DNA of 64,000 nucleotides. Source: Thermoproteaceae archaeon. GTDB taxonomy: Archaea > Thermoproteota > Thermoprotei > Thermoproteales > Thermoproteaceae. Shown in pieces: positions 566-22,560 of the stretch; positions within the stretch are counted from its first letter, which is position 1, and each line of letters opens with the position of its first letter. A program made the position numbers and the translations under genes. The notes beneath the pieces are model-generated. The model was not told where the DNA came from. It searched no databases and was given only the letters and a program-made list of their open reading frames with translations. The stretch is taken from assembly GCA_015521775.1 (NCBI GenBank), contig WANN01000024.1, positions 1 through 64,000 of the forward strand, in the 5' to 3' direction.

Positions 566-568
566 GGG

Positions 569-1714: not shown

Positions 1715-1876
1715 GGAGAGGAGCTCCTGCGGAAATAAAAAGGGTGGGGATGCTGGACGCGGGGCTAATTTACGGCGGGACTGGACATCGCCGCTAGAAC
1801 CGCCGAAGGGCTAGCCGCTCCGGCCGTGCGGCCATGCGCGCGGCGAATGCTTTTTAACGTTCCCGCCACAGCAATC

Positions 1877-3869: not shown

Positions 3870-3910
3870 CTAGGCGATACAGAAATATAAGGAGCCATGT
3901 TCACGTTGAC

Positions 3911-5501: not shown

Positions 5502-5700
5502 GAAGCATCTCCCCGTTCCGGGATAATAAAGGCATCTCACGGTTCCATGCGGTGCCCTAGCAGGCGCCGTGCGGTCAGGGTACGAAGTGCAACGCCCTAA
5601 TAGAACCGTTTCTATATGCCAGTTTCGCGTGATTAACCAGCGCATAGTGCTGTTTGGGGCCGCGTTGAATCGCTTATATATGGCGATGGACTCGTCCTAC

Positions 5701-5985: not shown

Positions 5986-6290
5986 CCGCATCCAACACGG
6001 CGGCCAAGCACAGCCACGGGCAACCAACCCTGCCAAGTCTCTCTCGGCCTACAGGGTAGTCTGGCATCCCCTTCACGACCGATACGAGCAACACACCACC
6101 TTCACGAGAATGCGACTATAACACATTCAGCCCCAGGCTATCCTTAAGACGGTCATATCCCTAGGGCTCTAGAAACCCCCAACATTTTTGGATATACCCG
6201 CACCGCCAGCGGCACCGAACATCAACCCCAATTTTCCTTATAAACTCTGCCAACGTCAAAACCCTTAGGCCAAGCAGGCTATAGTTAGGT
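5986..6290. other. Intergenic region without a clear gene
   Basis: About 305 nt. No frame is convincing. A TATA-like CCTTATAAAC near 6236-6245 would place a transcript start near 6266, ahead of the small ORF at 6291. Nothing else is recognised. Confidence 0.5.
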
Positions 6291-6494
6291 ATGTCTAGGA
6301 TCCCATGGCGTCGAATAGGGACGCGTTGCACGACTTCTCGCTATGTTAAGGCGTTGGCCGAGGTCTTCGGCTGGGAGGTTGTGGTTGTCAAGTGCTCTGA
6401 ACTTGGGCCTGACGTCACAGTAATCCACAGAGTTGGTAGGACTGTAGACGCCGTGATGTTTACTCATGCGCGGTTTTTCCCACGAGCCTGCTAA
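6291..6494 (+). CDS. Hypothetical 67-aa ORF, possibly a gene remnant
   Basis: A short frame beginning 25 nt after a predicted transcript start (TATA near 6240). The middle part (SRYVKALAEVFGWEVVVVK) has a plausible helix-strand pattern, but the C-terminus is not protein-like. It overlaps the upstream, probably untranslated, end of the next frame. I do not recognise it; it may be a truncated gene fragment left next to the coiled-coil nuclease gene. Confidence 0.25.
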   Translation: MSRIPWRRIGTRCTTSRYVKALAEVFGWEVVVVKCSELGPDVTVIHRVGRTVDAVMFTHARFFPRAC

Positions 6495-6549
6495 GGACGT
6501 TATTATAGCGGTGATCGTACAATATTTATTTCCAGGATTAGTATATGTG

Positions 6550-7476
6550 GTGGCGCAGTTTAGGAAGGAGGAGTTTCTCAGGGCGTTGAGAGAAGACGAG
6601 GAGTTCAGATATGCGGTACTTGGGCTGCTGGGCATTGAGAAGGTCCTACAGTCAATAGAGGAGAACACAAGGGCCATTAGAGAACTACAGGGTCAGGTGA
6701 AGACATTACAGGAACAAGTGGTATCGCTACAGGCACAGACGGCTGGCCTCCAGCAACAAGTCAACGAGAACACCAGGGCCATTAGAGAACTGCAGGTACA
6801 GGTAAACGAGCACACTAAAGCCATTAAAGCGTTACAGGAGCAGGTGGTTGCCCTTCAGCAACAGGTCAATGAGCATACAAAGGCTATTAAAGAACTGCAA
6901 CAGCAAGTGAACGAACATACAAAGGCCATTAAAGAACTGCAGCAACAAGTGAACGAGCACACCAGGGCCATTAAAGAGTTGCAACAACAGGTAAGCGAGC
7001 ATACAAAGGCCATTAAAGAACTGCAAGAGCAGGTAAAAGTCTTGCAGGAACAGGCCATTGAGCATGCCAGGGCTATTAGAGAGTTGGCAAGCAGGATCGA
7101 CGCGTTGGGCGCCAGGTGGGGCGTGGTGACCGAGGAGGCGTTCAGATCTTCAATCAAGTACTTGGCCGAGGATCTGCTGAAGGAGTACAAGGTTGGTAAG
7201 TGGACCTACTTCGACTCCGACGGCTTTGTCTATGGAAGGCCAAGCGTCGTCGACGTGGACGTGCTGGTCAGGAACGGCGAGCACATAGTCGTGGAGTTCA
7301 AGTCCTATGCCGACAGGGCAGACATAGGCGAGCTTTACAGGATAGGCCAGCTCTACGAGAAGATAAACGGCGTAAAGCCAAAACTGCTACTAGTAGCATC
7401 GGCGATTAGGAAGAGGGCCAAGGAATTGGCCGACGAGCTAGGCATCGCATATAGGGGCACAACACTCGAATACTAA
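6550..7476 (+). CDS. DUF3782-type PD-(D/E)XK nuclease with 14-residue coiled-coil repeats (paralogue 1)
   Basis: 308 residues in three parts. The N-terminal helix block contains LREDEEFRYAVLGLLG, shared with the paralogue at 13145. A long coiled coil follows, built from 14-residue units such as QQQVNEHTKAIKEL, repeated about six times in tandem. The C-terminal nuclease-like domain has Asp...Glu-X-Lys in VVDVDVLVRNGEHIVVEFK, then GELYRIGQLYEK. GTG 6550 (or GTG 6547) is about 25 nt after AATATTTAT (6521-6529); the paralogue alignment also supports this start. The repeats are 42 nt at DNA level and probably change in number by slippage. The family occurs in multiple copies in Thermoproteota; its function and target are unknown. 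Confidence 0.8.
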   Translation: MAQFRKEEFLRALREDEEFRYAVLGLLGIEKVLQSIEENTRAIRELQGQVKTLQEQVVSLQAQTAGLQQQVNENTRAIRELQVQVNEHTKAIKALQEQVVALQQQVNEHTKAIKELQQQVNEHTKAIKELQQQVNEHTRAIKELQQQVSEHTKAIKELQEQVKVLQEQAIEHARAIRELASRIDALGARWGVVTEEAFRSSIKYLAEDLLKEYKVGKWTYFDSDGFVYGRPSVVDVDVLVRNGEHIVVEFKSYADRADIGELYRIGQLYEKINGVKPKLLLVASAIRKRAKELADELGIAYRGTTLEY

Positions 7477-7978
7477 CGACGCGCTTTCAGCGACGCCAAA
7501 TCCCACACGTACTACACGTACTTAAGGGGACGCGACCGCGGCATCCCACGTCTGCCCATGCCCTATGCGTAAATGTCCTTAGTAGCGCCCGTGCTCCCCT
7601 GTACCATTGCAACGTCCGCCCCCGCGCCGTGGCCATGCACGCGGGCTTCCCGGCGTGGCGCGCCGTAGGCATCCCGCACAGCCGCAATCGCCTCGGCCTA
7701 GCAGCTTCTACGGGGGTTATGCGGCCCTTTGTCATATGCCGTCCCTCAGAAGCTTAGCGGATCCAAGCGGCTAGGCATTGCTTTGAGCAGAGGCTCGTGG
7801 CCGACCTTAGCAGGGCATGTTCGGCGATTTCCGCTATGTGCATTCCACATCGACGTCTAGACCTCTGCGGCCTCTCTGATCTTTTTACAATACTCATCAT
7901 TTATCCAACTCCGAGGGTTTCCACAGTGGGTTTGTCGAATGTTCCAAAAGAGCTAATTAGTGGGCCTATTTGGGGCAT
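7477..7978. other. 502-nt intergenic stretch, no supported gene
   Basis: No frame has credible protein character; an 82-codon minus-strand frame (7487-7735) is Arg/Cys-rich noise. A GC-rich stretch near 7755-7835 can pair its ends (AGCGGA with TCCGCT) and superficially resembles a tRNA, but it lacks a T-loop. TAATTA (7953-7958) is the probable promoter of the gene at 7979. The region may contain decayed DNA. Confidence 0.5.
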
Positions 7979-8290
7979 ATGGGTGCTGATTTGAAGAGGA
8001 TTAGGAGTTACGTGGAGAGGCATGTAGGCGATAAGGTTCCCGTAATTGTCCATAGGTCTAGTGACGCCGAGTATCCCATCTATGCGCCGGTGGCCGAGTC
8101 TCAGTACATAGCCATAAGGCTGAGGGGCAGGGTCGAGGAGCTCGGCGATACGTTGAGGGAGCTCAGTAAGAGGGAGATCACCTTAATAGTGGTGGCCGTG
8201 GAGCGGCACAGCGCTACGTTTTACGCGCTTATGGAGAGCGTCATGGTGGCCTTCGAGGTGGACTTACGCGAGTTGGGTAGGGCGATATGA
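7979..8290 (+). CDS. Conserved-looking 103-aa protein in operon with Pth2, unknown function
   Basis: ATG 7979 follows CTAATTAG (7951-7958) at leaderless distance; an upstream TTG at 7970 is open but less likely. The protein is alternately helical and beta, with strands [16 protein letters not shown] and [10 protein letters not shown], and no cysteine. Its stop overlaps the Pth2 start (8287), so the two are almost certainly co-translated. I do not recognise a domain. The pairing hints at a role in recycling peptidyl-tRNA or in translation quality control, which is inference only. Confidence 0.7.
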
Positions 8291-8640
8291 AGATGGCAAT
8301 TGTGGTTAGGACGGACGTGGAGATGTCCAAGGGCAAGCTGGCCGCCCAGGCCGCCCATGCGGCCGTCTCATGCGTCATGGAGGCGTTGAGGGATCCCCGT
8401 TGGAGGGGGTGGCTGGACGTGTGGCTGGCCGAGGGCCAGAAGAAGGTCGTGCTTAGGGTTAGGTCCCTCGACGAGTTAAGGGAGGTCGAGGCAAGGGCGC
8501 GTCAACTGGGCCTTCCCACGTCTCTTATAGTCGATGCGGGCCTCACGCAGCTTGAGCCGGGCACCACAACCGCCGTGGGCGTTGGGCCGGCCCCGGACGA
8601 CCTGGTGGACAGGGTGACGGGGCACCTGAAGCTCCTCTAG
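8287..8640 (+). CDS. pth2: Peptidyl-tRNA hydrolase, Pth2 type
   Basis: Cleaves the ester bond of peptidyl-tRNAs released from ribosomes. The 117-residue protein shows the Pth2 signature: [21 protein letters not shown] near the N-terminus, with the Lys, Gln and His positions of the active site, then KVVLRV, and [28 protein letters not shown] near the C-terminus, which carries the catalytic Asp. It overlaps the upstream 103-aa gene by 4 nt, and its 3' end overlaps the convergent ABC permease gene by 4 nt. Confidence 0.95.
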
Positions 8641-9419
8641 GACGAGGCGGCGAGGGGTCCAGCGCCTCTGGCGGCCGCCGCATCGGCACGTCTCCACGTG
8701 TACATGGCCGCTACTATGGCAACGAGGGACACGGCGATGCCGATAGGCATGGCGAGTCCCGGCTCCACCAGCCACCTTCCCGTGGCTGCATATATGGGGG
8801 GCGCTATTGCGTAGTGGGGCGGGGAGTAGGCGAAGGCCATTGCAATGTCCCGGGGCATGAGGGTCGGCGGGATCATCCCTCCTGCCAGCGGCACGACCCA
8901 CATGATTATGTTGGCGCCGAGCCAAGGCGTCCTGCTCCCCACAAACGTGTACGATGCGGCGACGGACACCCCAAGAGAGAAGAGTGTTAGCGTCGCTAGG
9001 GACCCCACGAAGAGCAGAGGCTCCGCGGGCGGCGGAGGCGCCCCGAACAGGGCCGTGTACACAGCGTATAACAACGACACATCTATTACGGACCAAAGGA
9101 GGCCAGTCGCTAACACGTGGCCGCATATGGCCCAGAAGGGGTTTCCCTTGGCTGCCCTCACGTATTCTAGTACGCCGGCAGCCGCCATGGCCCTGACCTC
9201 CGAGGCGGCCCACGCGAAGTCCGAGAACACCGTGAAGGAGACGAATCCCCAGAAAATGTACACTGCGTACCTCTCCGCTGCCCCGTACCATGAGATGGCC
9301 AGCACCGTGGCGAGGAGCCACATGGCGGTGGAGGCCGAGCCCGCGACGATCCTCTGCCAGGACCTGCCGTAGAAGGCCGCGACGCGCCACGCCTCCCTCG
9401 CCAAGTCGCCCATCACCAT
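8637..9419 (-). CDS. ABC-2 type transporter permease (exporter A, second permease)
   Basis: 260-residue membrane protein with about six hydrophobic segments (for example [51 protein letters not shown]) and the central Ile/Met-Pro-rich hydrophobic region ([15 protein letters not shown]) of ABC-2 permeases. It overlaps the preceding permease by 7 nt and forms a three-gene unit with the ATPase at 10168-11118. Substrate not predictable; drugs, lipids or small peptides are typical for the family. Confidence 0.8.
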
Positions 9420-10183
9420 ACGCTGTAGCGGCCGCTCCGCCTTAGGTTAAGTGACATGGCGGTGAAGGCGAGCGTCCCGACGGCCAGGTACGCCCAGTGT
9501 GCGCCGAGGAGCGCAAGGCCGCCTATACGGACCTCAAGCGATAGGGCAAGCCCCCTAACAACCTCGCCCCAGGGCCAGGCCGGGAAGGCCGCGGCGACGT
9601 ACTGCAAGTAGCGGGGGAGGAGATATATGGGGTAGATCAGCCCCCCTATGAGGGCCACTAGGGCGTTTATGGGGTTGGCCACCGACTGCGCGTCCCTGAC
9701 ATACGGCACCAGTGAGGCCGCCACGAGCCCTATCCCGAAGAGTGGGGCCAGGCCGACCACCGATATGGCCAGTGCCGCCAGCATTGCCAGGCCGTACGTG
9801 GGCCCCATGGTCGCGAACAGCGCCAGTGAGGTCGAGGCCGAGATGCCCGCCATGATTGGCGTGGCCACGCCCAGCCAGTAGCCCGCCATGAACCGCGGCA
9901 CGCTCATGGGGGACGCGGCTATGTACTCGTATATGCCTCTGGCCATCAGCTCCCGGAGGTTCCACACGGTGGAGCCGAGAGCCGTCTGGGAAAGCGCGAC
10001 TAGTGCCAGCCCCACGAGTTGGTAAGCCCACTTCTCCGCGTCTGCGCGTCCCCCCGACGCGGCCCAGCCGGCAGTGTAGAGCACGGCCGAGAAGAAGAGG
10101 GGGGTAGCCGAGAGGAAGACGAGGAGCAGCACGCTCCTCCTCATGTTGGCCAGAGCGATGTTAAACCCTATGACGATGCCCAT
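9413..10183 (-). CDS. ABC-2 type transporter permease (exporter A, first permease)
   Basis: 256-residue integral membrane protein with six hydrophobic segments, beginning with VLLLVFLSATPLFFSAVLY and including the ABC-2 style pattern ALVALIGGLIYPIYLLPRYL ahead of the last segments. The start overlaps the ATPase gene by 16 nt and the end overlaps the second permease by 7 nt, so the heterodimeric exporter is translated from one mRNA. Confidence 0.82.
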   Translation of the reverse strand: MGIVIGFNIALANMRRSVLLLVFLSATPLFFSAVLYTAGWAASGGRADAEKWAYQLVGLALVALSQTALGSTVWNLRELMARGIYEYIAASPMSVPRFMAGYWLGVATPIMAGISASTSLALFATMGPTYGLAMLAALAISVVGLAPLFGIGLVAASLVPYVRDAQSVANPINALVALIGGLIYPIYLLPRYLQYVAAAFPAWPWGEVVRGLALSLEVRIGGLALLGAHWAYLAVGTLAFTAMSLNLRRSGRYSVW

Positions 10184-11118
10184 ACCGCCCTGCTGAGCGC
10201 CTCTTCGAGGCCGGGCTCGTACACGGACAGCTCGATGAGGGCGCAGCCGTGCTCGGCGGCCCTCTGGGCTATCTCGGCCAGGGCGTGGAGGGGCCTGGCT
10301 GCCTCCACGTCCACCAACACCTCGTCACCGTTCCTCTCCCCAAAGGGAAATTCGCCGGGGCAGCGCAGTACGCCTCTTACCCTTGGCCTGAGCCCGAACC
10401 TCTCCTTGACCGATTGTGGGGTCCCTATGGCTGCCATGCGGCCGCCCGACAGAACGGCCACCTTGTCGGACAACTCCTCGACCTCCCAGAGGTTGTGACT
10501 AGTGAACACTATTGTGCGTCCCTCCCCCTTGAGGTCCCTGATGAGTCCCCGGACCTTCCTGGCCCCCAGGGGGTCTATCCCGGCCGTGGGCTCGTCCAAT
10601 ATGAGTACCGGGGGATCGTGGATGAGGGCCTTGGCTATGCCGAGCCTCGCCTTCATCCCAGTGCTGTACTCCTCGTAGGGCCTGTGGGCCGCGTCGGACA
10701 GGCCCACCACCTCGAGAAGCTCGCGCGCCCTCCTACGCGCGTCCCTCCGGGACAGGCCGTACATCATGCCGTAGTAAATGAGGTTCTCGAGGCCCGTGAG
10801 CCTGCCGAAGAACCCTTTATCAGGATATAACATAAGGCCTACGGACCTCCTCACCTTGTTGGCCTCTCCCACCACGTGGTGCCCCACCACCCATGCGTCC
10901 CCCTCGTCCGGTAGGAGGAGCGTGGCCAATATGCGCACCGTGGTCGTCTTGCCAGCCCCATTCGGACCGATTATCGAGATAAGTTCGCCTCTCCCCACGT
11001 TGAATGAGACGCCGTCGAGGGCCCTCACTAGGCGCGGCTCCCTGCGTAGGAGCCCCCTACGCTCGACGGTCCTAAACGCCTTCTTCAGCCCAACAGCGAC
11101 CACCACGTCGCCGCGCAT
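10168..11118 (-). CDS. ABC transporter ATP-binding protein (exporter A)
   Basis: ATPase of 316 residues energising the two permeases downstream. Seen: Walker A IGPNGAGKTTT, the signature YSTGMKARLGIAKAL, Walker B VLILDEPTAGIDP, and switch His in VFTSHNLWEVEE, followed by a C-terminal extension of about 80 residues typical of ABC-2 ATPases. ATG 11118 was preferred over an open upstream ATG because TTAAATT lies about 25 nt before it. The promoter region is shared, divergently, with the flavin reductase gene. Confidence 0.92.
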   Translation of the reverse strand: MRGDVVVAVGLKKAFRTVERRGLLRREPRLVRALDGVSFNVGRGELISIIGPNGAGKTTTVRILATLLLPDEGDAWVVGHHVVGEANKVRRSVGLMLYPDKGFFGRLTGLENLIYYGMMYGLSRRDARRRARELLEVVGLSDAAHRPYEEYSTGMKARLGIAKALIHDPPVLILDEPTAGIDPLGARKVRGLIRDLKGEGRTIVFTSHNLWEVEELSDKVAVLSGGRMAAIGTPQSVKERFGLRPRVRGVLRCPGEFPFGERNGDEVLVDVEAARPLHALAEIAQRAAEHGCALIELSVYEPGLEEALSRAVWASS

Positions 11119-11184
11119 GTCACAGGGCCCGAGGCGCAATTTAACGCTTCCGCATCAGTTATATTTCTCTGCGTCATGGGGGGC

Positions 11185-11757
11185 ATGCTGGTCGAGTATA
11201 GGGGGACCTTCTACAGGCTCCTACACCCCAGGCCCACGGTTATAGTCGTGTCCAAGTGCCCGGGCGGCAAGACCAACATGATGCCCGCCAGCTGGAACAC
11301 GCCTGTGTCGGAGGAGCCCCCAACCATAGCCGTCGCCGTCGACAAGTCCACGTACACGTGGACCTGCCTGGAACACCTCCCAGAGGCCACCATAAACGTC
11401 CCCTCCATAGACGACGTGGACCTGATCTACAGGCTTGGATCTATGTCTGGGAGGGACGTGGACAAGACAACCGAGCTCGGCGTTGAGCTGGCGCCCAGCG
11501 AAAGGGTGTCTGTGCCCCACATGGCGAGGGCCATAGCGGTCTACGAGGTCAGGGTGCACAGCAAGGTGGACGTAGGCGAGGTCACCCTCTACGTCTTCGA
11601 GGTGCTAAGGACGCTGGCCAGGAACGGCCTGGCCGATGAGTGGGGCATCGACCTGTCCAAGGCAAACATACCGCTACATGGGGCGGGCAGGGTCTTCCAC
11701 AGGGTGGACCCAAGGAAGGTGTACGCACAGAAGCGGCAACGTTACGCCACGGGATAG
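11185..11757 (+). CDS. Flavin reductase-like (FMN-binding split-barrel) protein
   Basis: 190 residues from ATG 11185 (TTATATT at 11159-11165 lies about 25 nt upstream; ATG 11176 is an alternative). The N-terminal pattern, with HPRPTVIVVS followed by NMMPASWNTPVSEEPP and IAVAVDKSTYT, is that of the flavin reductase/DIM6-NTAB family, which binds FMN or FAD in a split barrel. The partner oxygenase or electron acceptor is unknown. It stands alone, divergent from the ABC exporter. Confidence 0.78.
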   Translation: MLVEYRGTFYRLLHPRPTVIVVSKCPGGKTNMMPASWNTPVSEEPPTIAVAVDKSTYTWTCLEHLPEATINVPSIDDVDLIYRLGSMSGRDVDKTTELGVELAPSERVSVPHMARAIAVYEVRVHSKVDVGEVTLYVFEVLRTLARNGLADEWGIDLSKANIPLHGAGRVFHRVDPRKVYAQKRQRYATG

Positions 11758-11820
11758 CGCCGGCTCAAATGTACATGGGTTCCCTTTATAATAGGCCTCG
11801 CGATGCATGCCCTGTCCCCC

Positions 11821-11937
11821 ATGGTTACCGGTAAACGGCACGTTGGGCCAAAGCTGCTGAGGGGCGTCTCCCGTTACGCTTGCCGTACGCGCCTTTCCGC
11901 GTTAGGCCCGGCGTTCAGTGGCCTAGACTGTCGATGA
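11821..11937 (+). CDS. Possible 38-codon small ORF behind a TATA box
   Basis: CTTTATAATAGG (about 11784-11795) predicts transcription starting near 11816, five nucleotides before ATG 11821. The frame gives a basic 38-residue peptide and ends inside the 3' end of the convergent MBL gene. No family is recognised. The transcript could equally be a non-coding RNA. Confidence 0.25.
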   Translation: MVTGKRHVGPKLLRGVSRYACRTRLSALGPAFSGLDCR

Positions 11938-13003
11938 GGGGCTTCCTGCCGTGTAGCTCGGCCACTGTTAGCACGGCCACGTCGCTTCTGCGCGCCTCCT
12001 GCAACGCGGGTTCCACGTGCCTCCTCCATCTCTTTTCGCGTAGGATGTGATGGTCGTAGATGATCAGTTTGGGCCGTGCGGCGATTATCGTAGCGAGGTT
12101 CGTAACGGCCCGGGACAAGTTGATCCTGTTAAGCATGTATGGGTAGAGGTACGTGGGAGGGCCGTCCACTATGGCCACGTCTGGGCGAAGCCGCGCTATT
12201 TCCTCGGCGTAGTCCTCCACTATGGGACCCATGAGGTCGCTCGTGTAGTACACCCGGAAGCCGCCCCGCTCTATGAGGAGGGGCACCACCCAGCCCGTCC
12301 TCTCATATTCTGCGCCATGGAAATACGGCTCAAAGACGCGGATAGTGGCGTCGCCGAACTCGAAGGTCCTACCATCGCCGAAGGTCAGCCTAGTCCCACC
12401 TCCTAGCCTCACCTCCCTCACCCATCGATCCCTGGACCAGAGCCCCGCCAGTTTCCTGAACCATTCCCTGCCCCGCCTCAGGAGCTCCGCCCTCCTATTA
12501 TTGTAGTCGCCGAAGTCCCTGGAAAGCGCCGTAGCGAGCTTCTCCGCGGGGTCCTCGAAGTCCGCCGCCTCTGGCTCCCCATACAGCTCTTCTTCCACGC
12601 CTAGACGCCGCGCCAGCTCCTCCACGAACAGCCTCGCCCTTTCCCACTGGCTCTCGTTGATGTACTGATTGGGGTTCTTCGCAATAATGCTTGTGCCGGC
12701 ATACGCCGCCGGGTCAATGCCGTGGCTGTGCATGGCCAGGAAATGATCGTAGTGGTAATGCGTGATGAAAACGGCCCTTGCCCCACGCAGCTCCCTCAGG
12801 ATGAGCCCCATCACGTGGTCCCTAATCCTGTACTTCTCTTCCAAAGGAAGAGGGTAACCCGGCTGCATCTCGGCCACGCCGGGATCTACGACTGCCCGCC
12901 CCACAGACGTCTCAACAACTAGGCACATGGTTTTCGCGCCAAGACTGTCCGCCCACAGCATGCGTATCCCTCGCTCCATCAGGGCCTCGAGCAACTCAGC
13001 CAC
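11915..13003 (-). CDS. Metallo-beta-lactamase fold hydrolase, UPF0282-like
   Basis: MBL-fold metallohydrolase of about 362 residues. Seen: WADSLGAKTMCLVVET at the N-terminus, VVDPGVAEMQPGYPLP, the metal site FITHYHYDHF, a further metal ligand region VYYTSDLMGP, and LIIYDHHILREKRW near the C-terminus. This pattern resembles the archaeal UPF0282 group, of unknown substrate. GTG 13003 lies 26 nt from the AATATTAA box (13025-13032); the internal ATG beginning MLWADSLG is an alternative start closer to usual family N-termini. Confidence 0.78.
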   Translation of the reverse strand: MAELLEALMERGIRMLWADSLGAKTMCLVVETSVGRAVVDPGVAEMQPGYPLPLEEKYRIRDHVMGLILRELRGARAVFITHYHYDHFLAMHSHGIDPAAYAGTSIIAKNPNQYINESQWERARLFVEELARRLGVEEELYGEPEAADFEDPAEKLATALSRDFGDYNNRRAELLRRGREWFRKLAGLWSRDRWVREVRLGGGTRLTFGDGRTFEFGDATIRVFEPYFHGAEYERTGWVVPLLIERGGFRVYYTSDLMGPIVEDYAEEIARLRPDVAIVDGPPTYLYPYMLNRINLSRAVTNLATIIAARPKLIIYDHHILREKRWRRHVEPALQEARRSDVAVLTVAELHGRKPLIDSLGH

Positions 13004-13144
13004 CGGAACAACGCTTAGGAAAACAATATTAACGTTAGCGCCACATGCTCCCCCGCGCTGGTCCACATCCACCAGCAACGTAGAATTGCTGCGGGCCGCG
13101 TGGCACGGTTCAGAAGGTTTTTATCCGTGTGTAGCGGGGTTGGT

Positions 13145-14581
13145 GTGGGGATTAAGGAGGAGGTGCTGCGGCTGCTCAGGGAGGACGAGGAGTTCCGTTA
13201 CGCGGTACTGGGGCTGCTCGGCCTCGCTGAGTTGAGGTCGTCCGTGGAGGCCTTGGCGAGGTCGGCGGCGGAGCTGGCCAAGGCGGTGGCTGGGCTGAGG
13301 GAGCTGGCCAGCCGGCACGAGGAGAGGCTGGCGGGGCTCGAGGAGGGGCAGAACAGGCTGTGGGAGGAGATCCACAGGATATGGGTAGAGATGCGCGGGA
13401 TGAAGGAGGAGGCGCAGAGGCTGTGGACAGCCGTTGAGGAGGGCAACAGAGAGCTGAAGAGGCACTCGGAGGCGTTGGAGGAACACTCGAGGGCGATTAG
13501 AGGTTTACAGGAAGTCATCGCGGAGCATACCAGAACCATAGGGTTGCTTCAGGGGGCTGTGGACAGACATACAAGGGTACTCGAGGAACATTCCAATGCG
13601 GTTAGGAGCTTGCAGGGGGCTGTTGTGCAGCATACTGCAGCCATTAGGTCGCTACAGGAGACCGTGAATAGACACTCAGAGGCGATTAGGGGGCTACAGG
13701 AGACAATTGATAAACATTCAAGGGTACTCGAGGAGCATTCCAGGGCGATTGGGTCTCTTCATGAGGTAGTTGGAAGGCATTCTGAGGCGATTAGATCATT
13801 GCAGGAGGCCGTGGACAGGCATTCCAAGGTGCTGGAAGAACACTCAAAGGCCATAGGATCGCTGCAAGACGCTGTGGACAGACACTCGAGGGTCCTTGAA
13901 GAGCACTCAAAGGCCATAAAGTCGCTGCAGGAGGCCGTGGACAGGCATTCCAAGGTGCTGGAAGAACACTCAAAGGCCATAAGGGCATTGCAGGAAACGG
14001 TTGATAGGCACTCAGAGGCCATCAAGGGCCTCCAGGAGGCTGTGGCAAGTCATTCCAAGGCCATTAAGAGCCTGCAGGAAGCCGTAGATAGACACTCCAA
14101 AGTACTGGAAGAACATTCCAACGCTATAAGATCACTGCAGGAGGCCTTAGACAGACATTCAAGAGTGTTGGAGGAGCACTCTAGGGCGATTGGGGGACTG
14201 CAGATCAAGGTAGATGCACTGGGAGCTAGATGGGGCATCCTGGCCGAGGGAGCTTTTCGGGAGGGGATGAGGGGGGTGGTGGAGGAGTTGTTGGGCGTTT
14301 CCAGGGTCGGGAAGTGGAGGTTTTTCGATGGGGACGGCTTTGTCTACGGCCATCCAAGCATGGTGGACATTGACCTGGTGGTCAGGGACGGCGAGCACGT
14401 CCTCGTTGAGGTCAAGGCCAGCGTGTCGAGGGGCGACGTGCTCGAGCTCCACAGGATAGGCCAACTGTACGAGAAGGCGACCGGCGTAAGGCCCAGGCTG
14501 GCCATAATATCGCCGTACGCCGACGAGAGGGCCAGGGAAACCGCCTCCCAGCTTGGCGTGGAACTATACACGGCGCCCTGA
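13145..14581 (+). CDS. DUF3782-type PD-(D/E)XK nuclease with extended coiled coil (paralogue 2)
   Basis: 478 residues. It shares LREDEEFRYAVLGLLGL at the N-terminus with paralogue 1 and a matching C-terminal nuclease domain (MVDIDLVVRDGEHVLVEVK, then ELHRIGQLYEK). The middle is a coiled coil of about 250 residues made of 21-residue units such as AVDRHSKVLEEHSKAIKSLQE, mixed with 14-residue units. A 55-bp DNA segment at 13801-13855 is repeated identically at 13927-13981, pointing to recent internal duplication. GTG 13145 was chosen from TTTTTAT (13118-13124) and from the alignment with paralogue 1. Function unknown; a rod-like spacer carrying a nuclease is inferred. Confidence 0.82.
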   Translation: MGIKEEVLRLLREDEEFRYAVLGLLGLAELRSSVEALARSAAELAKAVAGLRELASRHEERLAGLEEGQNRLWEEIHRIWVEMRGMKEEAQRLWTAVEEGNRELKRHSEALEEHSRAIRGLQEVIAEHTRTIGLLQGAVDRHTRVLEEHSNAVRSLQGAVVQHTAAIRSLQETVNRHSEAIRGLQETIDKHSRVLEEHSRAIGSLHEVVGRHSEAIRSLQEAVDRHSKVLEEHSKAIGSLQDAVDRHSRVLEEHSKAIKSLQEAVDRHSKVLEEHSKAIRALQETVDRHSEAIKGLQEAVASHSKAIKSLQEAVDRHSKVLEEHSNAIRSLQEALDRHSRVLEEHSRAIGGLQIKVDALGARWGILAEGAFREGMRGVVEELLGVSRVGKWRFFDGDGFVYGHPSMVDIDLVVRDGEHVLVEVKASVSRGDVLELHRIGQLYEKATGVRPRLAIISPYADERARETASQLGVELYTAP

Positions 14582-14778
14582 GCCCGCCTATGGAGGGGCC
14601 CACCTACACGTGCATATGGGAAACGTCCGTTGAACCTACATAAGACGCGGCCGACTAGCCCACAGCGTGGGGCCCCTGATTCACAGATCTGAATATAGGG
14701 TGTCCAGGGGTCTGGAATCTATTACGGATACCCACAGAGGGGCAGAGAGCCGTTATAAAGTGGGGTGTGGGCAATGTC

Positions 14779-15189
14779 GTGAGGGAGGAGGGTATGGTCT
14801 GGCTTAGGGAGGCTCTACATGAATGTAAAGTTGCCAAGATGCTCCTCGAGGGGGGACTCTACAATTTTGCCGCGTTCCACTCGCACCAGGCCGTGGAAAA
14901 GGCGTTGAAGTCCCTTTTCTATTTAGTTCTGAGGAGGGAGCCGCCCAAGCGTCACAACCTGTTGGAACTTTACAGGGAATTGCGGGCCGCCGGCGTCGAG
15001 TTTTCCCCGGACCTCGTCGAGGGGCTCGCAGTCCTGACCAAGTACTACGCCACGTCGAGGTACCCCGACGCCGCCGGCGGTCCCCCCTCAGAACTGTTCA
15101 CGCGGCGGGAGGCCTCCTACGCGGTGGAGGTGGCATCGGAGATCGCCAGGCTTGCCTCTCTCGCCTATGGCGGAGGAGAGGGCTGTTAG
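14779..15189 (+). CDS. HEPN domain protein (toxin candidate of a HEPN/MNT pair)
   Basis: 136 residues from GTG 14779, about 25 nt after TTATAAAG (about 14754-14760). Typical HEPN helices: WLREALHECKVAKMLL, YNFAAFHSHQAVEKALKSL, then RREPPKRHNLLELY. That last segment carries the R-X4-6-H pattern of HEPN ribonucleases and toxins, followed by a Tyr/Arg-containing ATSRYPDA helix. It overlaps the following nucleotidyltransferase gene by 23 nt. In this widespread pair the MNT partner neutralises HEPN, usually by nucleotidylation; the target here is unknown. Confidence 0.88.
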   Translation: MREEGMVWLREALHECKVAKMLLEGGLYNFAAFHSHQAVEKALKSLFYLVLRREPPKRHNLLELYRELRAAGVEFSPDLVEGLAVLTKYYATSRYPDAAGGPPSELFTRREASYAVEVASEIARLASLAYGGGEGC

Positions 15190-15490
15190 GGCGGTGAGGC
15201 GGCTGGTGGAGGAGCTGGAGCGGATGGGGATAACGGTCGAGGCGGCCTACCTCTTCGGGTCCTGGGCCCGGGACGACTGGCTCGTGGACAGCGATGTGGA
15301 CGTGGTCGTGGTCTCGCCCAGCTTCCGCGGGGTGCCGTGGCTGAGGAGGCTGGAACTCGTGGCTAGGGTGGAGGCCAGGCTGGACCTGCCGGTTTCGTTG
15401 GACGTCCTACCCTACACGCCCGAGGAGGTGGAGGAGGTCAAGTCCGCCGTCTTACGCGACGCCAAGAAGTACTGGAAGAGAGTCGTCTAG
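15167..15490 (+). CDS. Minimal nucleotidyltransferase (MNT), antitoxin candidate
   Basis: 107 residues from ATG 15167, inside the end of the HEPN gene. Contains the polymerase-beta fold signature LFGSWARDDWLVDSDVDVVV (Gly-Ser followed by Asp-X-Asp), then a third acidic position in VSLDVLPY. Members of this family pair with HEPN toxins, either binding or AMPylating them. All metal-binding acidic positions seem present, so enzymatic activity is plausible. Confidence 0.88.
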   Translation: MAEERAVRAVRRLVEELERMGITVEAAYLFGSWARDDWLVDSDVDVVVVSPSFRGVPWLRRLELVARVEARLDLPVSLDVLPYTPEEVEEVKSAVLRDAKKYWKRVV

Positions 15491-15815
15491 CGTCGTGTCG
15501 CCGGCCCCAAATCCACGCCCACAAGTCGTTCTTTCCATGCCCCTCAAGCGATCCCCCGGGCGTCCCGGTAGGGAACAAGTACGGCTATCGCGCTGCTGTC
15601 CCACCGACCCGCCTCGAGCGTAGGGACTCACAGAGTCCTTCTTTCCAGTGGGTGGGCGTTACAGGTTTGTCGTGTCAGTAGTTCAGCGTGTTATATGGCT
15701 CGTGGGAAGGCGGGATGGGCCACTGCAGCTGCCGGACGCTGTGTGGGGCGGGCACAGGGTGTTGGGTGTACACATCGCTACGGCAAGTTTTTATTAGCGT
15801 GGTGCAGCGCTATGT
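15491..15815. other. 325-nt gap upstream of a decayed gene
   Basis: No supported gene. Two similar short motifs (GTTCTTTCCATG near 15528 and CCTTCTTTCCAGTG near 15637) lie about 110 nt apart but do not form an array. The end of the gap carries TTTTTATTA (about 15788-15796), a well-placed promoter for the frame starting at GTG 15816. Confidence 0.5.
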
Positions 15816-17225
15816 GTGGAGCTTCACGTTGAGCTGTGCAAGGTGGGGTTTCCGGTGGAGCTGGCCTACAAGGCGTTTCCGGGGTCCGAGGGAGAGGCGG
15901 AGAGACTTGTGGGGGCGGGCCTAGTGGCCGTTGATGGCGGCTTCGCGTCGCCGTTGGCCTGTAGGGAGGCGGGCGGCTCGGCCTTTCCTCCGGCGCCTTT
16001 GGGCTACGTGGTGGTGCCGTGGCTCAAAAAGGCATTTGGGCCCCCCTCTTGTGGCGGCCGATGAGAGGCTCAGGAGACGCCTCAACCGCTAAAACGCAGT
16101 GTACGTCTCGGACCTGGGTAGGCGCGAGTTCTCCTATGCTGTTTCCATGGGCTATTCCACGTGCACGGTGGAGCAGTGCTATGCGGATGTCCTGACCTTC
16201 GGCGAGCCGGGGCCCTACCTGGTGGACCTGCTGTGGTCCAAGGGCCTACACTACGTCGATGAGATATATGCCCTCTCCGGGCGAGGGGGCCCGCGTTTTG
16301 GCGGCCTCGTGGTATGGGAATCGCTCTTGACCGGCAACTCCGCATCCTGGGGCCGGTTCGACCCATATGCTGGGGACTTCGAGGAATGGCTCGACTGCGT
16401 GGCCAGGTGGGCCACGTGGGCGGCCCTTGACGGTGGGGAAACAACGTACTTCGCAATATAGGCGTCTCCTGGGCCTTGTGCCCCCATCGAAGAAATAGGA
16501 ATGGTGCTGGTGTCATGGGCGCCTTCTGGCCTGTCCCCGGCGGAGGCCCATCAGGTCCGCGCAGACCTGGAAAGGGTCGCGTACATGGACCGCTATGCTA
16601 GGGCCCTTGGGAAGGGAGGGCCCGTGTTGGGCGGCTACGTCATAAACTTCCTGGCCCTAGCGGGAAGAGGGAACCCCCACGTTTCACATTCGGCGTGGAC
16701 GCTGCGACCGAGCGCCCGACGTCCAAGGCCAGTGCCCTGAAGAGCATTGCGGCGGTGAACGGGATACTGGTAGACTGGTAGAAAGGGGACTTGCGACCTC
16801 CATAGAGGTGGGCGACTGCTCCTCGAACACGGCGTGGAGCGCGGCGTCCTTCCCTTCCTATTGCCTTTGGGGCGCCCATTGTGACTAGGTGGTCCGGCGC
16901 ACCGCTCTGGCGCTTCCTGGCGGGGAATAGTGCTGACGTGCCCCACCGGTCACGCAGTCGCACGGTTTCCCCGTCTCGGAGACTGCGCGGCAACTGTCTA
17001 AGAAGCTGAGCGAAAAGCTGGCCAAGCCTCTAGTTGGGGGAATGGCCGCCGTAGGAGCCCACGACATGGCCAATGCCATGATGGACCTGAGGGCCGTCGA
17101 GTATTACTGCTTATACGAGTAGGCCGACTGCGCGGCGGTGTAGCGGGATGTCGGCGAGGCGGCACGTATAGCCGCACATTTCTGGCCAAGCCACCACTAC
17201 ATCCTCGTTTAGGTACACCACACTG
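15816..17225 (+). pseudogene. Decayed gene with intact promoter, at least seven stops and several frameshifts
   Basis: A protein-like reading continues for about 1.4 kb but is interrupted. It starts at GTG 15816, 25 nt after TTTTTATTA. The frame shifts in the C-run at 16041-16046, meets TAA at 16090, continues as a 120-residue block to TAG 16459, resumes in the same frame, and shifts again at the C-run 16674-16678. It then runs through TAG 16779, 16886, 17120, 17141 and 17210. Protein-like stretches include DPYAGDFEEWLDCVARWATW, TSKASALKSIAAVNGILVDW and MAAVGAHDMANAMMDLRAVE. I do not recognise the family. The fragments were probably one multi-domain protein beside the toxin-antitoxin pair. 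Confidence 0.65.
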
Positions 17226-17409
17226 GCCTAAGTCGCCGCTAAGGCGCTCGTCTACCTGAAAAGGGGGTTCGATTGCTGATCGGAGCGCCGCTCATTAAGT
17301 AGCGCAATGGGGACACGTCAGGCACATGCCACACAGAGCCGTAAAAGTGCGGAGCGCCTAAGGCGTAAACGCTTACATGCACGCTTAACCGGCCCGCTAA
17401 TTTGAGGCC

Positions 17410-18228
17410 CTACCTGACCAGCTCCTCTATCCTGACGTACCTCACCTTCCTCGACGTATATGCAGTCAGAGCCGCCATGGCCAAGGTCCACGCCGCTAGG
17501 GATACGGCGGAGAGGGCAAGGTCCACGGTTTCCCTGCCCGGCATGGCGTAGGTAGTGGGGACTGCCCCGCCCACATATGCGTGGTATACTAAATTCATAA
17601 TGTTATTATATGGAGAGAGGTGGACCACGGCCCAGCCCACATCCGTGAAGGTTTGGCCGAAACCGAACGCGTACGCCAGTATGAAGGGGGCAAAGCTTAT
17701 GAATGTCACACTCCGAGTTATGGAGCTCCTCGCCGACAGCGCCAGGTTTGCGAGGAACGCTGTGAACAGGTGGAAGAATACCCCAGCCCACAGGGCTATT
17801 CCCACCACGAGGACGGGGCTTCGCGGTGGGAGGTCCTCTCTGAGGGAATTCGAGAAGGCGGCATAGGTGAATATGGCCAGCACTATGGCAAGTATCGCCA
17901 TGAATGCGGACGCAGCCACGATGTCTCCTACCACAAGTTTCCCCTCGCTGAGCCTCGTGTACCTGACCACGTAGGGTACCGCGGCAGACGCGTAGAGCTT
18001 CCTATAGGCTAGGCTTATGGCCGCGGCCGAAAAGGAGATGAGCGATGAGAGGGCCATCCACGAGGCTGTATATCCCAGCTTGACCACGTAGGGGGCCCAG
18101 ACAAGCTGGTCTCCGGGAAACACGTATGCTCCCATGGCCAGCCAGAACATGACAAAGAATAGGGACCAGAAGAGGGTGACTCCCCTGGTCAAATCAGCGT
18201 AGAGCCTGTACGCCACGTACCTGATCAT
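17410..18228 (-). CDS. ABC transporter permease (exporter B)
   Basis: 272-residue polytopic protein with about six hydrophobic segments (GVTLFWSLFFVMFWLAMGAY, MALSSLISFSAAAISLAY, AFMAILAIVLAIFTYAAF, LVVGIALWAGVFFHLFTAFL and others), consistent with an ABC-2 type permease. It overlaps the upstream ATPase gene by 4 nt, forming a two-gene exporter. The decayed gene lies immediately downstream. Substrate unknown. Confidence 0.75.
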   Translation of the reverse strand: MIRYVAYRLYADLTRGVTLFWSLFFVMFWLAMGAYVFPGDQLVWAPYVVKLGYTASWMALSSLISFSAAAISLAYRKLYASAAVPYVVRYTRLSEGKLVVGDIVAASAFMAILAIVLAIFTYAAFSNSLREDLPPRSPVLVVGIALWAGVFFHLFTAFLANLALSARSSITRSVTFISFAPFILAYAFGFGQTFTDVGWAVVHLSPYNNIMNLVYHAYVGGAVPTTYAMPGRETVDLALSAVSLAAWTLAMAALTAYTSRKVRYVRIEELVR

Positions 18229-18998
18229 GCCAACTCGTAAAGCCTGTCTAGACTTTCGAAATCGCCTATCCGATGGCCACCGCCGCCCTTCACGATGGAC
18301 ATACGGGCCCCGCCCACCTCTACCTCGAGGAGGGCCCCATCCACGTGTCCCGGCGTAATGTAGGCGTCCAGCAGGTCCCCCACGCGGGCCTTCCCATAGA
18401 CCTTGCCCTCGGCCATGAAGTACAGGTCCCAGTCGGCGAGGTGCCTGAGGACGGACAGCTCATGTGTGACGAGGAGGACTGTACGCCCAGATTCCCCGAT
18501 GAGTCCCAGGAGGGCCCTGCGCCGGGCCGGATCCACGTTCTCGAAGGGCTCGTCCAACAGCACATGCCTTGCCCCAACGGCCAGGGCCATCACATTGCAC
18601 ACCAGCTTGGCCTCGCCCGAGGAGAGCGACCACAGCTTCTTGCCCAGCACCCCCCTGAGGCCAAGCGCCTCGGCCATCTCCACGGCCCTGCCCAGGTCGC
18701 CCTCGGCAAGCCACATATATAGGTCTATTAGCTTTCTCACCGGGAGGTCCACTAGGTAGTAGATCTCGGCCAGGTTGGCTGCCAGTAGACGGGGCCTCGC
18801 CCTGATCCGCCTCACCTCCAGCCCGTCCACCTCCACCTTGCCCTCATAGGGGACGAGGCCCAGCAGAGCCCTGAGAAGGGTGGACTTGCCAGAACCGTTG
18901 GGGCCCAGCAGCACCGTGTTCCGCTCCACCTCCATGTCAATGCCCCGCAGCACCGGCTTTCCGTCTAAACGCGCAGTCAACCCAGCAACCCTAATCAT
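18225..18998 (-). CDS. ABC transporter ATP-binding protein (exporter B)
   Basis: 257 residues from ATG 18998, chosen because TTAAATT lies about 25 nt upstream; the longer frame to 19112 is unsupported. Seen: Walker A LLGPNGSGKSTL, a modified signature LSSGEAKLVCNVM, Walker B HVLLDEPFENVDP and switch LLVTHELSVL. Short ABC ATPases of this type pair with one ABC-2 permease that homodimerises. It is separated from the tRNA-Asp gene by about 225 nt without a recognised gene. Confidence 0.9.
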   Translation of the reverse strand: MIRVAGLTARLDGKPVLRGIDMEVERNTVLLGPNGSGKSTLLRALLGLVPYEGKVEVDGLEVRRIRARPRLLAANLAEIYYLVDLPVRKLIDLYMWLAEGDLGRAVEMAEALGLRGVLGKKLWSLSSGEAKLVCNVMALAVGARHVLLDEPFENVDPARRRALLGLIGESGRTVLLVTHELSVLRHLADWDLYFMAEGKVYGKARVGDLLDAYITPGHVDGALLEVEVGGARMSIVKGGGGHRIGDFESLDRLYELA

Positions 18999-19223
18999 GG
19001 ATATGCCCACCACACGTAATTTAAGTGTTGGGACGGGGCACAAACGGGTCCAACGCGGCCGCCGCCTTGCAAACAGCGGTGTCCCGCCGGGTTCAACGTT
19101 TGATGCCGCCAATATACTACGTTACCCGACACAGCCGAAGGCCCAAGTTCGGGCATACGAGGTGCGGGAAGCATATTGGACATAGCCCGGACAAAACGGA
19201 TAAGAATGACAAGAGAACAGGCT

Positions 19224-19392
19224 TGGCGCCCCGGCCGGGATTTGAACCCGGGTCACGGGCTTTCCGCCATCGCCCCGCCAATAACAACGCCCTGGGCATC
19301 TTTTAAGGTTTTCTCTTGGTCACATAAAAGGCGTGGGACGGCGGGGCGATGCCGACAGGCCCGCATACTGGTCCGGGCTATACTACCGGGGC
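19224..19392 (-). tRNA. tRNA-Asp(GUC), two exons separated by 91 nt at position 37/38; long intron or adjacent split halves
   Basis: 5' exon 19392-19353 (40 nt): acceptor GCCCCGG, TA, D-arm with GG, anticodon stem CGGGC and loop start CTGTCG. 3' exon 19261-19227: A38, stem GCCCG, variable TGAC, T-arm CCGGG-TTCAAAT-CCCGG, acceptor CCGGGGC, discriminator G73, with CCA encoded at 19226-19224. G73 and anticodon GUC indicate aspartate. The 91-nt insert begins and ends with arms that pair perfectly over 12 bp (19340-19351 with 19268-19279). Next to this is a canonical bulge-helix-bulge: bulge CGG, helix CTGT/GCGG, bulge AAA, placing cleavage exactly at 37/38. The insert also contains its own TATA box, so two separate transcripts are possible. 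Confidence 0.92.
19301..19308 (-). promoter_or_regulatory. Internal TATA box inside the tRNA-Asp insert
   Basis: CCTTAAAA on the minus strand, preceded by a purine-rich GAGAAAA (BRE-like). Its centre is 25 nt upstream of 19279, the first base of the 12-nt leader arm (GGCGGGGCGATG) of the 3' half. The preceding 5'-half trailer is followed by CCTTTT, a possible terminator. Both features fit separate transcription of the 3' half. Confidence 0.55.
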
Positions 19393-20229: not shown

Positions 20230-20655
20230 GTGTCCGAGGAAGAGCCCTTGACGGAGCTGGAGCTCCAAATACTTCTGGGCCTGGAGAGGCTTGGAGGCTC
20301 GTACCAGCAACGCAACCTGTGGAAGTTCATAGGTATGGACAGCAAGTCCGGTCTCCCCGTGCTCTCTAAACTGGAAAGGAGAGGACTCATCGTCAGGGAG
20401 AAGCAGGGGGGCGAGAAGAGGGGCGTCTACGTGATCAAACTCACGAACAAGGCCTACGAACTCCTGCAGAAGATGCGGGAACGAGAGGAGAGCGATAGGA
20501 CTATCGCTCTGCCCTCTGTTAAGTCGCCCCTACTCAAACTCCTCTTATCCATACCGTGCACATACTGCATGCACATATCTGAGTGCGGTTACGCCAAGAT
20601 TGACCCCGCCCGCTGCGTAATGTTCTCCAAGTGGCTCTATACGTACAATGAGTAG
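20230..20655 (+). CDS. TFE-beta (archaeal homologue of RNA polymerase III subunit RPC39/RPC34)
   Basis: Basal transcription factor that heterodimerises with TFE-alpha (encoded at 62817) and helps DNA melting by RNA polymerase. 141 residues: an N-terminal winged helix (ELELQILLGLERLGGSYQQR) and a C-terminal cysteine domain CTYCMHISECGYAKIDPARC followed by an aromatic VMFSKWL. This matches the CX2C...C...I-P-X2-C...W-L pattern of RPC39 and TFE-beta, which carries an Fe-S cluster. GTG 20230 was chosen from the TTATAAC box at 20202-20208; the frame is open from 20092 but overlaps the methyltransferase. The last 8 nt overlap the next gene. Confidence 0.85.
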   Translation: MSEEEPLTELELQILLGLERLGGSYQQRNLWKFIGMDSKSGLPVLSKLERRGLIVREKQGGEKRGVYVIKLTNKAYELLQKMREREESDRTIALPSVKSPLLKLLLSIPCTYCMHISECGYAKIDPARCVMFSKWLYTYNE

Positions 20656-21211
20656 CATAAGGGCGTTCGTCGCCGTGGATATAGACGAGGGGGATGTAGT
20701 GGAGAGAGTTGTGGACGTGCAGAGGACTATCGCGAAGGTTGGCGCCGACGTGAAGTTCGTGGAGCCGAACAACCTGCACATTACCCTGCGGTTCATGGGC
20801 GAGATTTCCCCTAGGAACCTGGACCTCGCCAAGAAGGCCCTTTCCGGGCTCAGGTACCAAAGGTTCAGGGTTAGGTTGACCGGGCTAGGCGCATTTCCCA
20901 GCGTGTCCTCCCCCCGCGTTCTGTGGATCGGGATAAGCGAGGGCGTCGAACAGCTAAGGGAACTGAGAGGCCTTGTGGAGGGCGCTGTGGGCAGATACGC
21001 GGCCCATAGGGAGGAGAGGGAGTTCTCGCCCCACCTCACAATTGGAAGGGTAAGGGGGCCCGGGAACAGGAACAGGTTGGTCGACGTACTGCGACAGTTG
21101 GCCGGAGCCGAGTTCGGCGTCCAGCCCATTGATTCGGTTAAGCTGAAGAGGAGTACGTTGACCCCCAGAGGCCCAATATACGAGGACATCCTAGTCGTGA
21201 GACTTGAATGA
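20648..21211 (+). CDS. thpR: RNA 2',3'-cyclic phosphodiesterase (ThpR/LigT family)
   Basis: 187-residue 2H phosphoesterase with both catalytic tetrapeptides: HITL (in NNLHITLRFMGEI) and HLTI (in SPHLTIGRVRGP). It opens 2',3'-cyclic phosphates on RNA. It sits between TFE-beta (8-nt overlap) and the CCA-adding enzyme (ATGA overlap). The ThpR-CCA gene pairing suggests work on tRNA ends, for example after splicing. Confidence 0.93.
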   Translation: MSSIRAFVAVDIDEGDVVERVVDVQRTIAKVGADVKFVEPNNLHITLRFMGEISPRNLDLAKKALSGLRYQRFRVRLTGLGAFPSVSSPRVLWIGISEGVEQLRELRGLVEGAVGRYAAHREEREFSPHLTIGRVRGPGNRNRLVDVLRQLAGAEFGVQPIDSVKLKRSTLTPRGPIYEDILVVRLE

Positions 21212-22560
21212 TAGGGGAGCTTCGCAGGCTCTTTACGCCAAGCGAGGAAGAGGAGAGGTTGGTCCACGGCGAGGCCACGTACATGAGGGGGCTCGTGCAG
21301 AGGGGACTGGAGGCAAGGGGGGCCCACGGCATAGCAGTGGAGGTGGGGGGAAGCGTAGCTAAAGGCACGTGGCTGCCCGGCCAAAGGGACATAGACCTCT
21401 TCGTGGTCGTGCCCAAGGGGTACCCACGTCGCTTTGTCGAACGCGACGTAGTGGACATGGTGATCGATATAGCCGCAGAAAACGGGATTGAGTGGACCCT
21501 CAGGTACGCGGACCATCCCTATGTGACGTTGCTCCACGGGAACTTCGAGGTCGACGTTGTCCCATGCTACAAGGTGGAGCGGGGGGAGAGGCCGATAACC
21601 GCTGCGGATAGGTCCCCCCTACACACCAGATACGTGGCGTCGCGGCTCAGCAACGACCAGAGGGCCGACGTCAGGGTGCTCAAGGCGTTCCTAAGGGGCA
21701 TAGGGGTCTATGGGGCCGAAATAAAGGTGGAGGGGTTCTCGGGCTACTTGGCGGAACTACTCATTATACGTTACGGCACGTTCATCGATCTGCTGGGCCG
21801 GGCCTCGCGGGAGTGGAAACCCTACGACATATACATAGACGTGGAGGGGGCCCACTCCCCGGAGGAGCTGAGGAGGCGCTTTAGGGCCCCCATGGTGGTG
21901 GTCGACCCCGTGGATCCCGGCAGGAACGTCGCGTCAGCCGTATCGGAACAAGCGCTAGGAATATTCGTGTTCGCGGCCAGGAACTTCCTGCGTGACCCCA
22001 CCATCGAATACTTCAAGCCGGATGACGAGGTGGGCACGCCGTACTTCGAGGTGCCCACGCTGGTGGTGGAAATGCGGTATCCCCAGGGCGAGCCGCCGGA
22101 CGTGGTGTGGGGCGCCATAAAAAGGGCTGCGAACATAATTGCAAAGAAGCTCGAGGAATGCGAGTTCAAGGTCTACCACTACACTGCCTGGACCGACGAG
22201 GCCACTATGATATACCTCGCCTTTACGCTGGAGAACGACGTCATGCCCGAGTACCAGCTGCACGAGGGTCCCCCCGTGTACTCGGAGGCCTCCGATAGGT
22301 TCGTTGAGAAGTATCTAGCCCTAGCAGATGTCGTTGGGCCCTATATCCACATGGGAAGGTGGTATGTGATTAGGAGGAGGAGGCACAGACACGCCGTGGA
22401 CTGTGCCCGTCACGTCGCTGTGAACGCCGTGCAGCCCTTCCTAGTCAAACTTGTGAAGGACATATACGTAACGAGGAGCCCCATCAGAGAAATCGGATGG
22501 TTCTTCTGGAAGAGGCCCGGCTGGGGACCCTTCTCAAGGCGCCGGACCTGGACTAAGTGA
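21208..22560 (+). CDS. cca: CCA-adding enzyme (archaeal class I tRNA nucleotidyltransferase)
   Basis: Adds or repairs the 3' CCA of tRNAs. 450 residues with the class I signature VGGSVAKGTWLPGQRDIDLF (Gly-Ser and Asp-X-Asp), a third Asp in FEVDVVPCY, and the RRPRAF-like helical region RSPLHTRYVASRL. The tail and body domains follow. It is preceded by thpR with an ATGA overlap. The C-terminal basic end (KRPGWGPFSRRRTW) could contact tRNA. Confidence 0.95.
   Translation: MIGELRRLFTPSEEEERLVHGEATYMRGLVQRGLEARGAHGIAVEVGGSVAKGTWLPGQRDIDLFVVVPKGYPRRFVERDVVDMVIDIAAENGIEWTLRYADHPYVTLLHGNFEVDVVPCYKVERGERPITAADRSPLHTRYVASRLSNDQRADVRVLKAFLRGIGVYGAEIKVEGFSGYLAELLIIRYGTFIDLLGRASREWKPYDIYIDVEGAHSPEELRRRFRAPMVVVDPVDPGRNVASAVSEQALGIFVFAARNFLRDPTIEYFKPDDEVGTPYFEVPTLVVEMRYPQGEPPDVVWGAIKRAANIIAKKLEECEFKVYHYTAWTDEATMIYLAFTLENDVMPEYQLHEGPPVYSEASDRFVEKYLALADVVGPYIHMGRWYVIRRRRHRHAVDCARHVAVNAVQPFLVKLVKDIYVTRSPIREIGWFFWKRPGWGPFSRRRTWTK

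Follow-up and report, generated by a model that had tools for sequence, protein, structure and literature searches.

A tRNA-Asp gene with an internal promoter sequence in a Thermoproteaceae archaeon is probably an adjacent split tRNA

We analyzed a stretch of 64,000 nt from an uncultured hot-spring Thermoproteaceae archaeon (positions 1 to 64,000 of contig WANN01000024.1, assembly GCA_015521775.1; "the window"), in which a tRNA-Asp(GUC) gene on the minus strand is broken between nucleotides 37 and 38 by a 91-nt insert, as read directly from the sequence (Table 1). This gene is probably an adjacent split tRNA gene, with a 5' half and a 3' half that lie next to each other and would be transcribed separately. 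An earlier note on this DNA (the original prediction) had raised the possibility of a split tRNA whose halves are still neighbors, and this is now supported at the sequence level by the promoter, its spacing, the congener and other predicted split tRNAs. Length alone is insufficient, as tRNA-Ser(UGA) of this genus contains a long intron that lacks a promoter; our argument rests on promoter, spacing and conservation. Hereafter, G000 denotes the genome of the window and G001 that of its sole congener in our collection, Thermoproteales archaeon metagenome-assembled genome (MAG) T2_metabat1_scaf2bin.089.

The two halves and the 91 nt between them lie, to the base, where the original prediction had placed them, and its description of perfectly pairing 12-nt arms and a canonical bulge-helix-bulge (BHB) was borne out by direct reading. 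The arms CATCGCCCCGCC and GGCGGGGCGATG form 12 of 12 base pairs, with a duplex energy of -26.3 kcal/mol at 37 C and -9.7 kcal/mol at 85 C, and the junction is a strict hBHBh' structure composed of the anticodon stem, the bulge AA^A, a 4-bp helix in which C32U33G34U35 pairs with GCGG, the bulge CG^G and the 12-bp helix. Folding the halves as two strands recovered both the acceptor and anticodon stems, along with the inner helix of 12 bp; the minimum-energy model loses the T arm. The sequence of the 5' half is identical in G001 and closely matches the intact tRNA-Asp of sister genera, and each of the two genomes (81% and 91% complete) contains a single tRNA-Asp match and no intact second copy. 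Neither ARAGORN nor Rfam at its gathering threshold called a tRNA at this locus, illustrating that standard tools can call essential tRNAs missing; at a permissive threshold, Rfam returned a 16.4-bit tRNA match over the 3' part, plus unrelated chance matches. Two other arrangements were rejected for tRNA-Asp: a permuted tRNA, as the 5' half stands before the 3' half, and the distant trans-split type of Nanoarchaeum and Caldivirga, as the halves are 91 nt apart and not at unlinked loci.

Promoters were scored with a 14-column matrix trained on the sequences that precede 40 other tRNA genes in G000 and G001; its consensus, GGCAAAATTTATAA, begins at -36 relative to the mature 5' end, with a 10-90% range of -37 to -34. 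Both TATA boxes that the original prediction had described, one before the 5' half and one, with a transcription factor B recognition element (BRE), before the leader arm, were recovered (Table 1). The internal site, AGAAAACCTTAAAA, has the top matrix score among ~128,000 window positions and outscores 57% of the tRNA promoters of the genus, while the matrix score within intact tRNA gene bodies was never above 7.0 and that of a long Ser(UGA) intron, used as a control, was -15. When the G000 insert was dinucleotide-shuffled, a score of 16.91 arose somewhere in 0.2% of the shuffles and at the right place in none of 4000. Because the internal promoter begins 35 nt before the leader arm, the 3' half is predicted to start at position 19279 or a neighboring base. 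By sequence, the 3' half has its own BRE/TATA, placed to start at the leader arm, as is expected of an adjacent split tRNA.

The original prediction had tied its case to conservation of the second TATA box in relatives, and on this point it survived. The tRNA-Asp gene of G001 has the same arrangement, with an 86-nt insert in which both arms are kept, and its internal site scores 15.18 at -36 from the arm, a score that shuffles match at the right place in 0.05% of cases. The longest word common to the insert loops of the two genomes (54 nt in G000 and 49 nt in G001) is the promoter core AGAAAACCTTAA (0/2000 shuffles), which sits 36 nt before the arm in G001 versus 35 nt in G000; outside this core, the longest common word is 4 nt. 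These observations bear on the alternative that the insert is an ordinary, longer-than-usual 37/38 intron, spliced out in cis from a transcript that starts solely at the upstream promoter, with a TATA-like word that is accidental or silent. A perfect BHB functions in cis, the BHB at 37/38 is that of a canonical tRNA intron, and promoterless long introns occur in this genus, for example in tRNA-Ser(UGA) of G000 and in tRNA-Val(UAC). However, such an intron would not be expected to have a promoter word that is placed precisely at the start distance and retained inside an otherwise diverged loop, and the same promoter layout recurs in tRNA-Lys(UUU) and tRNA-Ser(CGA); we therefore consider an ordinary intron unlikely.

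Several observations nonetheless weigh against an adjacent split gene. The 91-nt insert falls inside the range of 11-129 nt reported for archaeal tRNA introns (PMC3218864), and the arms equally permit ordinary cis-splicing of a read-through precursor, with the same product. The inner helix of G001 contains one mismatch, there is no convincing conserved terminator between the tRNA-Asp halves, and only two genomes represent the genus, each an incomplete MAG or assembly (81% and 91% complete). The CCTTTT that had been noted after the first trailer is present, a possible weak terminator, but it is missing from the insert of G001 and, because of this absence, we do not rely on it.

In related genomes with a recognizable tRNA-Asp, the insert measures 0 to 31 nt, and sister genera are intact or have a short intron. 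A scan of 398 genomes of the phylum, which relied on exact exon words and is not exhaustive, found a tRNA-Asp with a long insert only in G000, G001 and a third genome, G327, where the insert is 118 nt long and is accompanied by long arms and an internal TATA. From its likeness to the published tRNA-Asp of Aeropyrum pernix, which is split at the same position, with an internal promoter, a spacer of 121 nt and an arm of 14 bp (Chan et al. 2011; PMC3218864), we infer that G327 is an Aeropyrum relative.

In an adjacent split gene, RNA polymerase would start at the upstream TATA and produce the 5' half with its GC-rich trailer, and a second start at the TATA inside the former intron would produce, from ~19279, the leader arm and the 3' half. 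The two transcripts would pair through their 12-bp arms to form the canonical BHB at 37/38, which a presumed tRNA splicing endonuclease would cut and a presumed ligase would seal, joining nucleotide 37 to 38 to give mature tRNA-Asp(GUC). Trans-splicing is plausible in this cell because two other tRNAs share the layout and at least nine have separated halves (see below). We infer that the internal promoter fires and that separate halves dominate; a certain amount of read-through RNA is probably made as well and spliced in cis. In a half-way state, the cis-spliced full-length precursor and the trans-spliced halves would give comparable shares of tRNA-Asp, for which one could cite the location of both halves on one strand, the absence of a strong conserved terminator and a faint read-through product obtained by reverse transcription PCR (RT-PCR) in A. 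pernix (PMC3218864). That read-through was, however, below northern detection in A. pernix, where the halves were separate by northern blot (PMC3218864), and such an even division is quite unlikely here. Some archaeal tRNA introns host C/D box small RNAs (sRNAs) (PMC3218864), and the internal promoter might in principle drive an embedded RNA of this or another kind instead of the 3' half. Neither insert, however, contains a C box within one mismatch or a D box, on which grounds a C/D box sRNA host intron was rejected, no Rfam family scored above cut-off and the predicted start coincides with the leader arm, making this explanation very improbable. As to the origin of an adjacent split gene, an ordinary 37/38 intron may have been gained in the genus, its loop later acquiring a promoter.

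A census of the genus by T arms and tRNA matches identified further interrupted tRNAs, all predicted from sequence (Table 1). The halves of tRNA-Lys(UUU) are adjacent, 109 and 110 nt apart, with 11-bp arms (GGGCCAGGGGC/GCCCCTGGCCC); in both genomes, an internal promoter, CACAAAACTTTTAA, is found at -36 relative to the leader arm. Those of tRNA-Ser(CGA) in G001 are likewise adjacent, 109 nt apart, with 15-bp perfect arms and an internal promoter, CCAAAAATTTAATT, that lies at -35 and has a weaker score (10.87). The long intron of tRNA-Ser(UGA) in G000 (L190), which lacks a promoter, is shorter than the Ser(CGA) insert of G001.

In other tRNAs the halves are fully separated. tRNA-Leu appears to be trans-split in the D arm, with one 5' half (GCGGGGGTGCCCGAGCCAGGTCAAAG, trailer GGCGGGCGGC) that was located by a relaxed pattern, a strict pattern and an arm search having given nothing. 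There are five Leu 3' halves in G001 (CAA, CAG, GAG, UAG and UAA) and four in the less complete G000. Each of them has a promoter of its own and carries the leader CGCCGCCCGCCCGGC, which is common to all, and all five isoacceptor 3' halves would be joined to the single 5' half. In a sister-genus genome (G017), an intact tRNA-Leu(UAA) occurs alongside four 3' halves and two 5' halves of tRNA-Leu. A Leu 3'-half-like sequence with a TATA and the leader GCGGCCCCGCCCCGCCGCA was also seen in another family of the order (L213; G020:C1 ~940, plus strand). tRNA-Gly appears to consist of one shared 5' fragment, whose trailer is GGCGGGTGCGGGG, and of 3' fragments for the isoacceptors GCC, CCC and UCC. 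Relative to the arm, the promoter motif is at -37 in GCC, -42 in UCC and ~-50 in CCC, such that the UCC and CCC leaders would be longer; a degenerate extra tRNA-Gly copy is present at L175. The 5' and 3' halves of tRNA-Thr(UGU) lie on different contigs and share a 13-bp match (GCTCCGGGCCCCC/GGGGGCCCGGAGC). The promoter motif is at -34 to -37 for most 3' halves of the Lys(UUU), Ser(CGA), Leu, Gly and Thr(UGU) tRNAs.

The predicted split tRNAs number up to twelve in G001 and nine in G000, and at least nine tRNAs of the genus (Leu, Gly and Thr(UGU)) have fully separated halves. With somewhat less confidence than for tRNA-Asp itself, we favor the view that as many as twelve tRNAs of this genus are assembled from pieces transcribed separately, with one 5' half supplying all five tRNA-Leu, and that the genus preserves a whole series of states: a promoterless long intron (Ser-UGA), adjacent halves (Asp, Lys-UUU and Ser-CGA) and unlinked halves (Leu, Gly and Thr-UGU). 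The Asp locus joins an already known kind, and the genus-wide set is unusually large; to our knowledge, it is the largest such set.

It has long been debated whether split tRNAs go back, as relics, to the earliest tRNAs or emerged late, through the evolution of introns. Because the genus holds promoterless long introns, adjacent halves and fully separated halves, the steps of splitting can be compared within one lineage; if true, the series would show split tRNAs arising late from introns via promoter acquisition, and their origin could be studied directly in this genus. The probable tRNA-Asp split would be a recent one, absent in sister genera, and affects the same tRNA and position as that of Aeropyrum. 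The two apparently arose independently, given the different order, the 91-nt versus 121-nt insert and the intact genes of sister genera.

Table 1. Features of the tRNA-Asp(GUC) locus in the window, and loci of other predicted split tRNAs of the genus (L and C numbers are our handles for loci and contigs)
Feature	Location	Strand	Remarks
BRE/TATA of 5' half	19429-19416	minus	CGCAAAGCATATAT; at -37 from nt 1; score 13.95; conserved in G001
5' half of tRNA-Asp(GUC)	19392-19353	minus	40 nt; nt 1-37; anticodon GUC; reads GCCCCGGTAGTATAGCCCGGACCAGTATGCGGGCCTGTCG
BHB 5' strand	19358-19352	minus	C32-U35 central helix (19358-19355); bulge C36 G37^G (19354-19352)
Insert at 37/38	19352-19262	minus	91 nt; contains trailer arm, internal promoter and leader arm
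Trailer arm of 5' half	19351-19340	minus	CATCGCCCCGCC; pairs with 19279-19268
CCTTTT past trailer arm	19331-19326	minus	possible weak terminator; direct reading
Internal BRE/TATA	19314-19301	minus	AGAAAACCTTAAAA; score 16.91; 35 nt before first base of leader arm
Leader arm of 3' half	19279-19268	minus	GGCGGGGCGATG; predicted transcription start ~19279
BHB 3' strand	19267-19261	minus	GCGG (19267-19264); bulge AA^A38 (19263-19261)
3' half of tRNA-Asp	19261-19227	minus	35 nt; nt 38-73; reads AGCCCGTGACCCGGGTTCAAATCCCGGCCGGGGCG
Genome-encoded CCA	19226-19224	minus	directly after 3' half
tRNA-Lys(UUU), G000	L067 219-403 (G000:C19 ~62818-63001)	plus	
tRNA-Lys(UUU), G001	L083 (G001:C136)	reverse	
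tRNA-Ser(CGA)	L191 (G001:C91 ~900-1080)	reverse	
tRNA-Leu 5' half	L099/L098		
tRNA-Leu 3' halves, G000	L085, L087, L089, L091		
tRNA-Leu 3' halves, G001	L086, L088, L090, L092, L094		
tRNA-Gly 5' fragment	L204/L199		
tRNA-Gly 3' fragments, G000	L161, L173		
tRNA-Gly 3' fragments, G001	L182, L186, L188		
tRNA-Thr(UGU)	L200/L197 and L177/L189		

The surroundings of the tRNA-Asp gene were compared between the two genomes. A 6.2 kb upstream flank aligns collinearly, with 84% identity, and this alignment breaks off precisely at the 3' end of tRNA-Asp; the start of the window matches again, in inverted orientation (window 515-19223 versus L212 6285-10458). An integrated mobile element as the cause is unsupported, as the window contains no second copy of the tRNA 3' end, and none of the six flanking genes that were tested encodes an integrase domain. 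Two enzymes that act on RNA ends, a LigT-like RNA phosphoesterase and the CCA-adding enzyme, are encoded near the tRNA-Asp gene in both genomes (window 20648-22560). Elsewhere in the window, two long proteins (6466-7476 and 13100-14581) have many heptad-like repeats (HSKVLEEHSKAIKSLQ) and similar C-terminal domains.

In the open-access literature we found no report of a split tRNA in this genus, of a split tRNA-Leu or of a split tRNA in metagenome-assembled archaea. Split tRNAs were not reported in five Pyrobaculum genomes (PMC3218864), and there are six each in Caldivirga maquilingensis and Nanoarchaeum equitans (PMC3218864; PMC4033280). The original prediction had pointed to Caldivirga and Nanoarchaeum, but the nearest precedent for the Asp locus is A. 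pernix, with the same tRNA, site and layout. The canonical 37/38 archaeal intron has the same BHB and position as the Asp insert, but a median length of 15 nt and no promoter (PMC3218864). N. equitans and Staphylothermus resemble the present genus in the promoters of individual halves, the complementary arms and the BHB at the junction, and differ in that the halves are at separate loci and that the tRNA-Lys involved is CUU, split at 30/31 (PMC3218864). C. maquilingensis belongs to the same order, and it also has halves common to isoacceptors and an interrupted tRNA-Gly; unlike here, it has split and tri-split tRNAs with halves transcribed elsewhere in the genome, and its tRNA-Asp is not split (PMC4390854, PMC4090602), whereas the present genus involves Leu, Thr(UGU), Lys(UUU) and Ser(CGA), and its Gly consists of one 5' and three 3' pieces. 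The split tRNA-Asp(GUC) of Thermosphaera aggregans has the same junction and neighboring halves, which, in contrast to the same-strand halves described here, are convergent on opposite strands (PMC3218864). With A. pernix, finally, the present locus has in common the tRNA, the 37/38 site, adjacent halves on the same strand, a canonical hBHBh', GC-rich arms, a strong internal BRE/TATA, the absence of a C/D box and a predicted start at or near the leader arm. The arms are 14 bp in A. pernix and 12 bp here, the inserts 121 and 91 nt, and the A. pernix case, from the Desulfurococcales, was demonstrated on RNA, whereas the present one, from the Thermoproteales, is predicted from sequence.
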